Part shown: positions 6,968 to 13,408 of the stretch, in pieces
Layout: each line of letters begins with the position of its first letter
How positions within the stretch are numbered: position 1 is the first letter of the stretch
Source of the DNA: Acinetobacter pittii
GTDB taxonomy: Bacteria > Pseudomonadota > Gammaproteobacteria > Pseudomonadales > Moraxellaceae
Reading direction: 5' to 3'
Length of the DNA: 64,000 bases
Assembly (NCBI RefSeq): GCF_034067285.1
Contig: NZ_CP139286.1
Location: 62,001 to 126,000 of the forward strand
Program-made: the position numbers and the translations under genes
Notes under the pieces: model-generated
Database searches by the model: none
The model's input: only the letters and a program-made list of their open reading frames with translations
What the model was told of the DNA's origin: nothing

Positions 6968-8023
6968 ATGGATATTTTAGAGAACCCATTAGAATTATGC
7001 GGTTTTGCATTTATTGAATTTGTTTCAAAAGAAAATGAATTAGATCCAGTTTTTGAAACGATCGGCTTTTCAAAAGTAGCCAAGCATAAATCGAAAGAAG
7101 CGTACTTATGGCGTCAAGGAAATATCAATATTATCCTGAATTATCAGCCAGAATCTTATGCTTCATTCTTCTTTAATGAACATGGTCCATCTGCTTGTGC
7201 GATGGGTTTTAAAACACGTGATGCAGCAAAAGCTTTCCAAAAAGCAGTAGAGCTTGGTGCTGAACCAATGTATTCAAAAGTTGGGCCAATGGAGCTCAAC
7301 ATTCCGGCAATTAAAGGTATTGGTGGCATGCCAATCTTTTTAGTTGACCGTGATATTTATGAAAATGACTTTGTTTTCTTTGATGATGCCGAGAAACGTC
7401 CAGTAGGGGCAGGCTTAAACGAGATTGACCACTTAACTCATAACGTCTACAAAGGCCGTATGGAGTATTGGGCAAACTTCTATGAAAAAATCTTCAACTT
7501 CCAAGAAATTCGCTACTTTGATATTAAAGGCGAATATACAGGTTTAACGTCTAAAGCATTAACAGCGCCAGACGGCATGATTCGTATTCCTCTAAACGAA
7601 GATTCGGACAAAGGAAACGGCCAAATTGCAGAGTTCCTATCTGACTTTAATGGTGAAGGTATTCAGCATATCGCATTTATTTGTGATGACTTAATCTCGA
7701 CTTGGGATAAGTTAAAAGGCCTGGGTCTGAAATTTATGACTCCGCCACCAAATACGTATTATGAAATGCTAGAAGATCGTTTACCTGAGCATGGTGAACC
7801 GACTGATGAATTAAAACAGCGCGGTATTTTGCTCGATGGTAATACTAAAGACGGTCAGAAAAAGCTGTTATTACAAATTTTCTCTGAAAACATGATTGGT
7901 CCAGTTTTCTTTGAATTTATTCAACGTAAAGATGATGATGGCTTTGGTGAAGGTAACTTCAAGGCATTGTTCGAGTCGATTGAACGTGACCAGATTCGCC
8001 GTGGTGTTTTAGAAACTAAATAA
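6968..8023 (+). CDS. hpd: 4-hydroxyphenylpyruvate dioxygenase
   Basis: A 351-residue two-domain VOC enzyme that turns 4-hydroxyphenylpyruvate into homogentisate using oxygen and Fe(II), in tyrosine and phenylalanine breakdown. The iron ligands are in [10 protein letters not shown] (His155), GIQHIAF, and FFEFIQR near residue 315; the C-terminal helix follows in [14 protein letters not shown]. An AGAGGGA ribosome site lies six bases before the ATG. The companion genes fahA and maiA are 2 to 4 kb away on the other strand. A clear terminator follows. Confidence 0.96.
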
Positions 8024-8093: not shown

Positions 8094-8873
8094 TTAGCGG
8101 CTTTTAATATATTGATTGATGAGGTTTACTTCATTTTTCAAGATTTCAATCGTTTTACTGTGAGGGTCGACTGGTAAAAACATTTCACTATCCAATGCGA
8201 CAATACAAAACTCAATGCTCTGGTTTGAGTTAAACACAGGTAAACCCACCGCATTAATCCCCGTCAGTAAATCACCTTTCGCTGCCGACATTTGTTGTTG
8301 GCGAATAGTGTCTTTGAGCTCTGTAAACTCTTGCCAGTTTCGTGGTGCGATGTGCAATCCAAGTTCTTGATGCTTTTGCCATTCAGCTTCCATTAAAGGA
8401 CGAACAAAATGCTCTGGAAGATAAGAAGCAAATAGACGTCCCGCAGCAGAATTGACTAAAGGCATAATTGAGCCGACTTTAGTGACAATCGAAATAGGGT
8501 GGTTCGATTCAATCGATTGAACCACGACAGGACCTTTCGGTGACCATTTACTGATTTGTATGCCGCAACCAATTTTGTTTTGTAGGTCGTAAATTAAATG
8601 CTGTACCAGCTGTAGTGTGTCGCTATGCTGAACACAGTTTAGACCTAAGCGCCATGCCTGATCACCTAAAGCATATTGCCCATCATCAAGCTGTTTTGCA
8701 TATTCCATACGAATAAGGCTGACCAGATAACGATGTACCTTGGCAGGATGCATGTCGAGCTTGCTCGATAGATCTTTGAGAATAATAGGTTGATTGTGTT
8801 CCAAAAGGGCGTTTAGTACAGATAAACCGACTTCAAGTGATTGAACCCCCCCAGATACTTTTTCTTCAATCAT
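8094..8873 (-). CDS. IclR family transcriptional regulator, likely of tyrosine/homogentisate catabolism
   Basis: A 259-residue regulator with the IclR layout: an N-terminal winged helix-turn-helix (about residues 10-75, including DLSSKLDMHPAKVHRYLVSL) and a C-terminal effector-binding domain (about 85-250, with the GITAVGLPVF-like segment GINAVGLPVF). It sits between hpd and the fahA-maiA-VOC operon, the place occupied by hmgR in other bacteria, so control of those genes is likely but inferred. AAGGG precedes the ATG. Candidate binding sites are the TTAYG-N5-CRTAA palindromes near 6.56 and 11.85 kb. Confidence 0.88.
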   Translation of the reverse strand: MIEEKVSGGVQSLEVGLSVLNALLEHNQPIILKDLSSKLDMHPAKVHRYLVSLIRMEYAKQLDDGQYALGDQAWRLGLNCVQHSDTLQLVQHLIYDLQNKIGCGIQISKWSPKGPVVVQSIESNHPISIVTKVGSIMPLVNSAAGRLFASYLPEHFVRPLMEAEWQKHQELGLHIAPRNWQEFTELKDTIRQQQMSAAKGDLLTGINAVGLPVFNSNQSIEFCIVALDSEMFLPVDPHSKTIEILKNEVNLINQYIKSR

Positions 8874-9169: not shown

Positions 9170-9718
9170 TTAGGTTCCTAACTCTTCTTCATGTAAGAAA
9201 TGAGTGTGGTGCGGAGCGCGTTTAGTTTTGCTCCATTCCTCTAGCATTTCAACTTTCATCTCTTCAGTAATTTTCGCAATTTTTTCTTCAGCATGCACAT
9301 CGTTATAAGTCAGCTCTAAACGGTGGCCATTTGGGTCAAAGAAGTAAATTGAGTGGAAAATGCCATGGTTGGTCACGCCTAAAACTTTCACACCATTTTC
9401 TTCTAAATGTTGCTTGGCAGCCATCAGTGCATTTAAGTCTTCAACTTCAAAAGCAATATGTTGTACCCATTGAGGCGTATTCTCGTCGCGCCCCATTTCC
9501 GGTTGAGTTGGCAATTCAAAAAATGCCAAAACGTTACCTTGGCCGGCATCTAAAAATAAATGCATATATGGGTCAAAGGCTTTAGTTGAAGGTACATGGT
9601 CCTCAGCAAAAGCTAAAATAAAGTCCATGTTGAGCATTTTTTTATACCACTCAACAGTTTCTTTCGCATCCTTACAACGATATGCAACGTGATGTATTTT
9701 TTTAATGGCAAATGTCAT
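9170..9718 (-). CDS. VOC-superfamily metalloprotein, candidate ring-cleavage dioxygenase
   Basis: A 182-residue vicinal-oxygen-chelate protein with two beta-alpha-beta modules. Likely metal ligands are His10 (in KIHHVAYRC), His87 (in WVQHIAF) and Glu135 (in GHRLELTY), the His-His-Glu triad of extradiol dioxygenases, FosA and glyoxalase I. A 45-residue helical tail follows. It is the last gene of fahA-maiA-VOC. Since no hmgA-type homogentisate dioxygenase is in the cluster, it may do that step; this is inference, and a glyoxalase-like or other role is equally open. Start at 9718 is set by AAAGGAG before the ATG; an upstream start at 9745 would overlap maiA. Confidence 0.82.
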   Translation of the reverse strand: MTFAIKKIHHVAYRCKDAKETVEWYKKMLNMDFILAFAEDHVPSTKAFDPYMHLFLDAGQGNVLAFFELPTQPEMGRDENTPQWVQHIAFEVEDLNALMAAKQHLEENGVKVLGVTNHGIFHSIYFFDPNGHRLELTYNDVHAEEKIAKITEEMKVEMLEEWSKTKRAPHHTHFLHEEELGT

Positions 9719-9735
9719 ATTAAAACTCCTTTTTA

Positions 9736-10368
9736 CTATTCCCAATCTGGTTGTTGTTCTGGCGCCGCGTTATAGAAGGCTGGGATAGACAAACAATGGT
9801 GATAAATCGATTCAACTTTTGGAAACGCAGATAAATCAATCTTGAAGCGTTTCGCGTTGTAGACCTGTGGAATTAGGCAGCAATCCGCAATTGTTGCTTG
9901 TTGTCCAAAGCAAAATTGTCCATTTGAATCTTGAAGTTGCTGTTCGAGATTTTGAAAGCCTTCAATAATCCAGTGCTGATACCAATAGTTTTTCTGCTCA
10001 TCTGAAACATTTAATTCATTTTTTAAATATTTCAGTACGCGTAAGTTGTTTAATGGGTGAAGATCGCAGGCGATTGCTTGGGCAAAGGCACGGATTTTGG
10101 CTCTCTCTTGCACATCACTTGGAAGTAACTTGGTTTCTGGATATTGCTCATCCAAATATTCCAAAATACTTAACGATTGAGACAAGGTTAAACCACCATC
10201 AATTAAGGTCGGCACAAGAGCACTGCGGTTTAACTTTAAATAGTCTTCGCTCTGCTGTTCATTTTTTACCAGATGAACTGGAACAGTCTCATAAGCTAAG
10301 CCTTTAATGTTGAGGCCAATCCGTACTCTGTAAGCTGCAGAGCTACGAAAGTAACTATACAGCTTCAT
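9736..10368 (-). CDS. maiA: Maleylacetoacetate isomerase (zeta-class glutathione transferase)
   Basis: A 210-residue protein with a thioredoxin-like N-terminal domain and a helical C-terminal domain. The zeta-class active-site motif is present as YSYFRSSAAYRVRIGLN (residues 3-20), and the glutathione-binding SxS loop as TLSQSLSILEYL. It isomerises maleylacetoacetate to fumarylacetoacetate with glutathione. The start at 10368, with GGAG upstream, overlaps the end of fahA by 14 bases, which points to coupled translation. Confidence 0.95.
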   Translation of the reverse strand: MKLYSYFRSSAAYRVRIGLNIKGLAYETVPVHLVKNEQQSEDYLKLNRSALVPTLIDGGLTLSQSLSILEYLDEQYPETKLLPSDVQERAKIRAFAQAIACDLHPLNNLRVLKYLKNELNVSDEQKNYWYQHWIIEGFQNLEQQLQDSNGQFCFGQQATIADCCLIPQVYNAKRFKIDLSAFPKVESIYHHCLSIPAFYNAAPEQQPDWE

Positions 10369-11662
10369 AGTCAGGCTCCGAAGTTTCTGCAAAATCGAAA
10401 GTTAATGCAGGAAGAACCGTGTTTCGAACCTCGCCAAAGCCAATGCGAATACCATTTTTCTCACAGTGACCTTTCATGATCAGGGTATCGCCGTCTTGCA
10501 AGAAACCACGAGTTTCACCATTGGCGAGTGTTAAAGGCTTGGTGGTGTTCCAAGTCAGCTCAAGCAAGCTGCCATATGAATCTGGCGTAGAACCAGAAAT
10601 GGTACCTGAGCCCATCAAGTCACCGACCTGAACGTTACAGCCTGCAATCGTGTGGTGAGTCAACTGCTGAGCCATTGACCAATACATATATTTGAAATTG
10701 GTTTTGCAGATCACATCAGGTTGTGCTGATTTCGGGCTTTGAATTTCAACACTCAAATTAATGTCGTAACTATTTGCGATATTTTCTTGTAAATACGCTA
10801 AAGGTTTAGGCTCTTGTTTTGGGCCTTCCACCTTAAATGGCTCAAGTGCTTCAAGCGTGACTACCCAAGGAGAAATCGAACTTGCAAAAGTTTTTGCGTT
10901 AAAGGGTCCAAGTGGAACATATTCCCATTGCTGGATATCGCGTGCTGACCAGTCGTTCAGCAAAACCATTCCAAAAATATGGTCCCATGCATTTTCAATC
11001 GAGATAGGTTGCCCAAGCTCCGTTGGTTTACCAATAACAAATGCTGTTTCAAGTTCAAAATCGAGTTTACGTGTCGCTGAAAAAACTGGGCGCTCTTCAT
11101 TTGGAAGCTTAATTTGTCCAGATGGACGAACGATTTGAGTACCACTGACTACAACAGAACTAGCACGGCCATTATAACCAACAGGTAATTCACTCCAGTT
11201 TGGCAGTAAAGCATTTTTAGGATCGCGGAACATACAGCCCACATTGGTCGCATGTTCTTTAGAAGAATAAAAATCGGTATAACCCGGGACTTGAAGTGGT
11301 AAATGCAAAGTTACGCTGTCTTGTTTAACCAAAACTTCTTGGCGCAATGCTTCATTTTCTTGAAGTGTTAAATTTTCAACCGAGAGAAGAGACTGTAGTG
11401 TCTTACGAACTTTTGACCAGTTGGCTTTGCCAGACTCGATAAATTTATTCAGTGTAGGCTGGTTAAAATATGTGTCTTGTTCTGAAAGTTTTAAAAGCCC
11501 GTGCTTTTCAAGCGCAGCGAGATCAATCACCCAATCACCGATTGCTACACCAACTTGACGATCACTTTCGTTAGTTCTACTAAAAATACCGTAAGGCAAA
11601 TTATGAATAGTGAAATCTGATTGAGGTGAAACTTCAATAAAAGAGTTTAGTTTTTGTTCCAT
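10355..11662 (-). CDS. fahA: Fumarylacetoacetase
   Basis: A 435-residue hydrolase that splits fumarylacetoacetate to fumarate and acetoacetate, the last step of tyrosine breakdown. It has the FAA N-terminal domain (about 1-120) and the catalytic domain; diagnostic stretches are DFYSSKEHATNVGCMFR, RKLDFELETAFVIG, LLNDWSARDIQQWEYVPLGPF and GDLMGSGTISG. The acidic metal ligands are in DFYSS and in the ELETA and NDWSARD segments. I chose ATG 11662 because AAGGA stands before it; the longer reading frame to 11698 has none. It heads the fahA-maiA-VOC operon. Confidence 0.96.
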   Translation of the reverse strand: MEQKLNSFIEVSPQSDFTIHNLPYGIFSRTNESDRQVGVAIGDWVIDLAALEKHGLLKLSEQDTYFNQPTLNKFIESGKANWSKVRKTLQSLLSVENLTLQENEALRQEVLVKQDSVTLHLPLQVPGYTDFYSSKEHATNVGCMFRDPKNALLPNWSELPVGYNGRASSVVVSGTQIVRPSGQIKLPNEERPVFSATRKLDFELETAFVIGKPTELGQPISIENAWDHIFGMVLLNDWSARDIQQWEYVPLGPFNAKTFASSISPWVVTLEALEPFKVEGPKQEPKPLAYLQENIANSYDINLSVEIQSPKSAQPDVICKTNFKYMYWSMAQQLTHHTIAGCNVQVGDLMGSGTISGSTPDSYGSLLELTWNTTKPLTLANGETRGFLQDGDTLIMKGHCEKNGIRIGFGEVRNTVLPALTFDFAETSEPDYEAV

Positions 11663-12019: not shown

Positions 12020-13408
12020 ATGTCAGCACAAGAGCAAGGAAACCTGAAACATGGTTTGAGTAATCGGCACATCCAGCTTATTGCATTGGGTGGGGCGATT
12101 GGCACAGGGCTTTTTCTTGGTATATCACAATCGATTAAATTAGCAGGTCCATCGGTCATCCTCGGTTATGCCATTGCAGGATTTATTGCTTTTTTAATGA
12201 TGCGCCAGCTTGGTGAAATGGTGGTTGAAGAGCCAGTAAGTGGTTCTTTTAGTCATTTTGCCTACAAATATTGGGGACCATTTGCCGGGTTCATGTCAGG
12301 ATGGAACTATTGGGTACTCAATGTCCTCGTCTGCATGGCAGAACTCAGTGCAATTGGTCTTTACATTCAATATTGGTGGCCGCAAATCCCGACGTGGGCA
12401 TCTGCTTTAACCTTCTTTGTCTTAATTAATGGCATTAATCTGCTCCACGTTAAGTTTTTTGGCGAAATGGAATTTTGGTTTTCTATTGTCAAAATCTTGG
12501 CGATTCTTGCAATGATTGGCTTTGGTTCATATCTACTTGCAACAGGCACAGCAGGTCCACAGGCAAGCATTTCGAACCTCTGGGCACTTGGCGGTTTCTT
12601 CCCGTTTGGTGTTGAAGGCTTAGTCATGGCAATGGCGGTTATTATTTTTGCTTTTGGTGGTATTGAGCTGTTCGGTATTACTGCGGCTGAAGCACGTGAC
12701 CCTGATAAAACTTTACCTAAAGCTGTGAATCAAATTATTTACCGTATTTTGATTTTCTATATTGCGACACTTTTTGTTTTATTCTCGCTATTCCCATGGA
12801 ATCAAATGGCACAAGGCGGAAGCCCGTTTGTGATGGTTTTTGCTTCTTTAGATAGCCAAGGCATTGCAACGTTATTGAACTTTGTCATTTTGACAGCAGC
12901 GGTTTCAGTTTATAACGGCACAAGTTATTGCAGTAGCCGTATGCTATTGGGCCTTGCACAACAAGGAAATGCACCAAAAGTATTTGCACGTATTAATAAA
13001 CGCGGTATTCCAACCAACGCAGTGATCCTTTCTGCGGCAGTCACTATTTTATGTGTACTGTTAAATTATATTTTCCCTGAAAAAGCATTTGGTTTACTGA
13101 TGATGCTGGTGGTTGCGGCGATTGTGATTAACTGGGTAGTCATTTCATGGACGCACTTAAAATTCCGCAAATATATGCAGCGCCAAGGGCAAACAACCAA
13201 GTTCCCAAGCTTTATGTATCCGTTTAGCAACTATCTATGCATATTATTTATGCTTGGCATTTTGATCGTGATGTCTTTAACACCAGATATGCGTGTTGCG
13301 GTCATGATGATTCCTGGCTGGATTTTGTGTTTGATGGTGGCTTATCAATTTAAACGCCGGAAATTAAAAGCTGAGCAGTCTATACGCGCTTTAGAAGCAG
13401 ATATTTAA
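12020..13408 (+). CDS. Amino acid permease of the APC (AroP/ProY-like) family
   Basis: A 462-residue inner-membrane carrier with about twelve membrane segments. The AAT signature is clear at the N terminus (NRHIQLIALGGAIGTGLFLG, and LAGPSVILGYAIAG) with FAFGGIELFGITAAEARDP near residue 220. It is divergent from fahA and shares its control region, so uptake of phenylalanine or tyrosine is likely but inferred. It is a close paralogue of the permease at 22.1 kb in the hut operon. No strong ribosome site is visible before the ATG. Confidence 0.9.
   Translation: MSAQEQGNLKHGLSNRHIQLIALGGAIGTGLFLGISQSIKLAGPSVILGYAIAGFIAFLMMRQLGEMVVEEPVSGSFSHFAYKYWGPFAGFMSGWNYWVLNVLVCMAELSAIGLYIQYWWPQIPTWASALTFFVLINGINLLHVKFFGEMEFWFSIVKILAILAMIGFGSYLLATGTAGPQASISNLWALGGFFPFGVEGLVMAMAVIIFAFGGIELFGITAAEARDPDKTLPKAVNQIIYRILIFYIATLFVLFSLFPWNQMAQGGSPFVMVFASLDSQGIATLLNFVILTAAVSVYNGTSYCSSRMLLGLAQQGNAPKVFARINKRGIPTNAVILSAAVTILCVLLNYIFPEKAFGLLMMLVVAAIVINWVVISWTHLKFRKYMQRQGQTTKFPSFMYPFSNYLCILFMLGILIVMSLTPDMRVAVMMIPGWILCLMVAYQFKRRKLKAEQSIRALEADI

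Follow-up and report, generated by a model that had tools for sequence, protein, structure and literature searches.

The tyrosine cluster of this Acinetobacter genome raises the question of which enzyme opens the ring of homogentisate. The cluster lies in the window, that is, the whole 64-kb stretch of DNA analysed. It begins with hpd for 4-hydroxyphenylpyruvate dioxygenase (6968–8023, plus strand; TIGR01263, 382 bits against a cut-off of 277) and an IclR-type regulator (8094–8873, minus strand; Pfam HTH_IclR and IclR_C), presumed to control the tyrosine cluster. Three minus-strand genes follow in the transcriptional order fahA, maiA, VOC: fumarylacetoacetase (10355–11662; TIGR01266, 590 bits, cut-off 375), which is the operon's first gene, maleylacetoacetate isomerase (9736–10368; TIGR01262, 293 bits, cut-off 171), and a small protein of the VOC superfamily (9170–9718; Pfam Glyoxalase PF00903) that starts from the ATG at 9718. 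An AroP-like amino acid permease (12020–13408, plus strand; PF00324) stands beyond them, and its best model, PRK10238 AroP, gives 688 bits, below the cut-off of 848. With fahA and maiA sharing 14 bases and the VOC gene starting 17 bases past maiA, the layout makes the VOC gene the third of the fahA operon. An earlier note on this DNA had described the same arrangement, with an aromatic-type permease; coordinates and family models agree with it, and hpd, maiA and fahA all score above curated NCBIfam cut-offs. The operon position is borne out by the layout, and the translation confirms a protein of 182 residues with His, His and Glu at positions 10, 87 and 135.

The same note had found no cupin-like HmgA in the stretch and had advised searching the whole genome. 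This search was run on the complete genome that contains the window (one contig, 3.69 Mb, rated 100% complete), where PF04209 gives no match at E <= 0.001 and TIGR01015 none at E <= 10, which rules out a standard hmgA elsewhere in it. Other genomes show that the TIGR01015 search works: it scores above the cut-off in Caulobacter, the only one of 14 controls to do so, and in 20 of the 203 gammaproteobacterial genomes. Cupin-type HmgA (TIGR01015) shares with the VOC protein the proposed reaction and the position in the pathway; it differs in length (about 430 residues against 182), and a relation between the two is undetectable. Among the Pfam and NCBIfam matches listed, the VOC protein has no assignment to the HmgA families TIGR01015 or PF04209.

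The VOC protein matches PF00903 with 65.1 bits (cut-off 20.6, 1e-17). Its glyoxalase/dioxygenase domain and its paired beta-alpha-beta-beta-beta fold, seen in a structure model and in fold matches, place it in the VOC superfamily. Aligned with XylE, a catechol 2,3-dioxygenase of the type I extradiol class, residues H10, H87, H118, Y125 and E135 fall on XylE H153, H214, H246, Y255 and E265, which we take to be functional residues of that enzyme, and the extradiol signature is matched by both proteins. All five are invariant in 94 of 94 aligned VOC relatives, and together they supply the His-His-Glu triad, catalytic His and Tyr of type I extradiol enzymes. The placing of His10, His87 and Glu135 as a metal triad, as proposed earlier, is consistent with this alignment and with the invariance, and the three residues form a putative metal site. 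The acid-base His199 of XylE has no partner in the alignment; an invariant His53 of the VOC protein lies in the same half. XylE itself is a two-domain chain of 307 residues acting on an ortho-diol, whereas the VOC protein has 182 residues and one domain instead of the two domains and roughly 300 residues of its class, and it is therefore filed under the VOC superfamily and not under the two-domain enzymes. LinE, a hydroquinone dioxygenase of the same superfamily, resembles it in taking, by the product name of its record, a para-diol substrate like homogentisate, and in its His-His pairs at 12–13 and 228–229. It differs in having 321 residues, a score of only 13.7 bits against the VOC profile and no match to the extradiol signature.

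The crystal structure PDB 9U42, 98% identical to the window protein, amounts to near identity with a named protein, and no notable difference between the two is seen. Its title, 'Crystal Structure of Homogentisate 1,2-Dioxygenase from Acinetobacter in Complex with Zn ion' (released 2025-07-23), is the depositors' own, and the metal bound is Zn; a literature search found no paper naming it. After 9U42, the closest folds among the Foldseek and VIA matches listed include FosB, FosA, glyoxalases and GloA2. The same listed matches contain no two-domain extradiol enzyme, which excludes nothing. Such neighbours would suit an accessory role for the VOC protein, as a repair enzyme, a thiol-dependent isomerase or a partner that assists Hpd, with homogentisate cleaved by a third, unrecognised type of enzyme encoded elsewhere in the genome. 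The genome does hold other VOC proteins, with six PF00903 matches of which two are the VOC gene and hpd. We nevertheless consider an accessory role improbable: the conserved residues match those of ring-cleaving enzymes, the title of 9U42 names the dioxygenase, and scores against fosfomycin-resistance and glyoxalase I models lie far below their cut-offs (FosB model PRK04101, 41.2 bits against 171; glyox_I model TIGR00068, 28.4 bits against 120), which rejects both identities.

Earlier publications treat the gene in different ways. A 2020 review table lists A1S_3416 of A. baumannii ATCC 17978 as hmgA, 'glyoxalase/bleomycin resistance protein/dioxygenas', beside hmgB, hmgC and hpd, and gives it as 24-fold up in biofilm together with those three genes (PMC7273844, in the portion available). 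This locus is equated with the window's VOC gene by product name and gene order in that table. In a 2017 study, A1S_3414 and A1S_3415 are listed as up together with A1S_3416 in part of the bile-salt comparisons (PMC5423435). Section 2.3 of PMC11945678, as far as its text is accessible, uses an 'hmgA' reference stretch of 633 bases that slightly overlaps the hmgB reference; judged from the coordinates, it would have the length and place of maiA and not of the VOC gene, and gene names may be mixed up there.

Pigmented strains are the subject of a published judgement against activity. The accessible text of PMC7646211 (2020) states that hmgA was not found in a pigmented A. baumannii, notes that the gene lying between hmgC and hmgR encodes a type I ring-cleaving dioxygenase domain, and suggests on sequence grounds that it is a remote homologue 'with no dioxygenase activity'. 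The VOC protein would on that account be an inactive remnant, and homogentisate would stay uncleaved and end as pyomelanin, as the same text proposed; the pigmented strains it describes carry the VOC gene without HmgA. This reading is very improbable, more so than an accessory role. The catalytic-type residues are invariant in all 94 aligned rows, maiA and fahA would be left without a substrate, and the available portions of PMC7646211 and PMC9431530 call the pigment rare in A. baumannii. An hmgA plasmid moreover abolishes pigment, according to the text seen of PMC9431530 (2022), which in that portion does not state the gene family of hmgA.

The latter paper also reports a Tn2006 insertion that interrupts hmgA of the pigmented A. 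baumannii strain DETAB-R21, and prints the target duplication as CATTTTTTT. It calls this duplication 11-bp although the printed form has nine letters, and elsewhere it gives 9-bp for duplications made by Tn2006. An identical site lies in the window at 9635–9643 (plus strand), within codons 26–28 of the VOC gene, and it occupies the same codons in all 6 Acinetobacter stretches examined. A second copy of the nine-base string occurs only once in those stretches, in fahA of L103. Since the 64-kb window holds 3 copies against 5.65 expected by shuffling, a match in the 549-base VOC gene could arise by chance with an estimated probability of a few per cent. Read from the printed duplication, the published insertion and plasmid would point to the VOC gene as the interrupted 'hmgA', which counts against an accessory role. 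As evidence on turnover of homogentisate, the pigment complementation is indirect.

Gene content across the bacterial family agrees with a role in the Hpd pathway. Among 99 sampled genomes from 16 genera, the VOC gene is present in 28, all with at least 233 bits, and the next-best genome reaches 93 bits. The search matched 30 of the 99 at E <= 1e-15, from which G038 and G068 (about 93 bits, 34–35% identity) were left out. Genomes with hpd above the cut-off number 28 as well and are the identical set (G067, at 19.7 bits, is not counted), and HmgA is found in 0 of the 99. Both genes are patchy within three genera (7/19, 14/17 and 7/17 genomes). In 6 of the 28 genomes the two are separated by more than 20 kb or sit on separate contigs, and linkage is therefore not enough to account for the co-occurrence. 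An accessory role would need a further unknown enzyme that tracks hpd across exactly this set of 28 genomes. Genes for fahA above the cut-off occur in 21 of the 99, all inside this set of 28. Seven VOC genomes of genus g11 have no fahA over the TIGR01266 cut-off. In five of these seven (G036, G045, G063, G071 and G086), a weak match to a fumarylacetoacetase-type hydrolase (about 21–24 bits) is found no more than about 1.5 kb away from the VOC gene (e.g. G045:C1:1944258-1944557), perhaps a divergent replacement of FahA.

In the gammaproteobacteria, VOC and HmgA appear as alternatives. Of the 203 genomes searched, 32 carry hpd above the cut-off; 16 of these have HmgA above the cut-off, one an HmgA fragment, seven a weak HmgA-like protein (70–88 bits), five the VOC protein at more than 240 bits and one (G204) a VOC relative 46% identical at 129 bits, which leaves two (G157 and G200) with neither. 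These counts rest on a VOC search that matched 8 of the 203 genomes, with G188 (73 bits) left out and G204 kept apart, and on an HmgA search that matched 29, with 20 above the cut-off and fragment G121 and eight weak matches kept apart. VOC and HmgA occur together in none of the 203 genomes. Among the 32, this lack of overlap has a probability under independence of 3e-5, or 3e-4 without G204, kinship uncorrected. HmgA above the cut-off is present without hpd over its cut-off in G104, G148, G188 and G217. The divergent HmgA-like proteins, at 70–88 bits with TIGR01015, are encoded on the same contig as hpd and near it (G103, G122, G125, G133, G149, G215 and G271), and they may represent a further branch of the homogentisate step. 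In G246 (2.0 Mb), a VOC protein 62% identical to that of the window (G246:C1:1625995-1626528, L115) has a flavin monooxygenase near it, and the genome has no hpd above the cut-off.

Beyond these samples, a scan of named genomes was considered for its best 80 loci (67–99% identical), which fall in alpha-, beta- and gammaproteobacteria and one Holophagaceae MAG; the protein of L017 is 99% identical to that of the window. In 65 of these 80 loci, the stretch also holds hpd, fahA or maiA. Gene order varies, being hpd-VOC-fahA in betaproteobacteria, fahA-maiA-VOC with a TRAP transporter in Marinomonas, and HmgA-fahA-metallohydrolase-flavin monooxygenase-VOC-maiA in Ruegeria and its kin. The last order is seen in L047:328-7246, where a true HmgA is followed by fahA, a metallo-beta-lactamase-fold protein, a flavin monooxygenase (PRK08132), the VOC gene and maiA, and similar alphaproteobacterial clusters occur in L043, L045, L049, L053, L066, L083, L086, L087 and L088. 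The stretch contains both VOC and HmgA in 18 of the best 80 loci. This company of a true HmgA in many alphaproteobacteria would speak for an accessory role.

HmgA was searched in the genomes of 50 of these 80 loci, some of them MAGs and all of unstated completeness, and exceeds the cut-off in 23; it is in two pieces in L054 and a weak match in L057. By context, HmgA is present in 2/19 genomes where VOC is with hpd and no monooxygenase, 10/15 with a monooxygenase only, 4/4 with both and 7/12 with neither. As the hpd-only and any-monooxygenase groups differ in this way (2/19 against 14/19; Fisher 2e-4, kinship uncorrected), VOC as the companion of hpd tends to stand in for HmgA, and as the companion of a monooxygenase it tends to occur beside HmgA. 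The presence of both in monooxygenase contexts is the main result against replacement everywhere. The neighbourhood survey suggested by the earlier note, which asked whether HmgA is consistently absent where VOC sits with fahA and maiA, thus has a divided outcome: HmgA is absent from the VOC genomes among the 203 gammaproteobacteria searched, but present in 23 of the 50 wider ones.

The two contexts do not correspond to two clean VOC subfamilies. When the contexts are mapped on a tree of 94 VOC proteins, 14 changes are needed for the hpd-linked rows and 16 for the monooxygenase-linked ones. The two therefore interleave, although 0 of 500 shuffles are as low. Bootstrap support in this tree is not settled, and poor trimming probably accounts for the long branches of L118, L116, L115 and L117. 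A locus 84% identical, from a MAG labelled Neisseriaceae (L029), lies in the Acinetobacter branch, which reflects either a transfer or a bin that is mislabelled or mixed. In one of the best 80 loci, from a Rhodoferax MAG (L041:4810-6531), a single open frame of 574 codons spans hpd and VOC; it is a fusion or an assembly error, and it is counted in favour of the dioxygenase assignment. Similar fusions considered in L091 and L116 were rejected, as the long frames found there hold no hpd.

The layout of the genes, the co-occurrence of VOC with hpd, the lack of HmgA beside it in the gammaproteobacteria searched, the invariant residues, fold, 9U42 and the fit of the insertion together lead us to predict that the VOC protein is, with high probability, the homogentisate 1,2-dioxygenase of this genome, in place of the unrelated cupin-type HmgA. 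In the proposed pathway, Hpd would make homogentisate, the VOC enzyme would open its ring with O2 to give maleylacetoacetate, MaiA would convert this to fumarylacetoacetate, and FahA would split the latter into fumarate and acetoacetate. The working metal is probably Fe(II), held by His10, His87 and Glu135, and the chemistry would be of the extradiol or hydroquinone-dioxygenase kind. Points that speak against this assignment are the HmgA found beside VOC, G246 with no hpd, the verdict of PMC7646211, the unpartnered His199 of XylE and the Zn in 9U42. The earlier proposal of an unrelated replacement dioxygenase thus stands for this genome through gene content, residues, insertion fit and 9U42; it is neither new nor true everywhere, with HmgA in 23 of 50 VOC genomes.

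The assignment itself had been made in the title of 9U42 (2025) and, as hmgA, in the 2020 review table. No biochemical description of the enzyme was found among the literature matches listed, and as far as the literature searches reached, the spread of the family is unreported. The scope may be new, a widespread second family for the homogentisate step with no curated name, and so may the pairing with a flavin monooxygenase beside true HmgA in alphaproteobacteria. A broader scenario, which we regard as evenly balanced between right and wrong, is that hpd-VOC operons, mostly without HmgA, form a widespread second solution for homogentisate in Pseudomonadota, and that alphaproteobacteria have recruited the same enzyme to a module of flavin monooxygenase, VOC and MaiA next to true HmgA, in which VOC would open homogentisate of another source or another hydroquinone acid.

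For the sampled family, the finding means that an apparent gap in a textbook pathway is closed by an unrelated enzyme in three hpd-bearing genera. As most named relatives among the matches listed are called only 'VOC family protein' or 'glyoxalase', a curated model of this VOC family would better annotate many genomes. The verdict of missing dioxygenase activity given in the available text of PMC7646211 merits a second look, and an enzyme of the VOC type helps to explain pigmented Acinetobacter strains.
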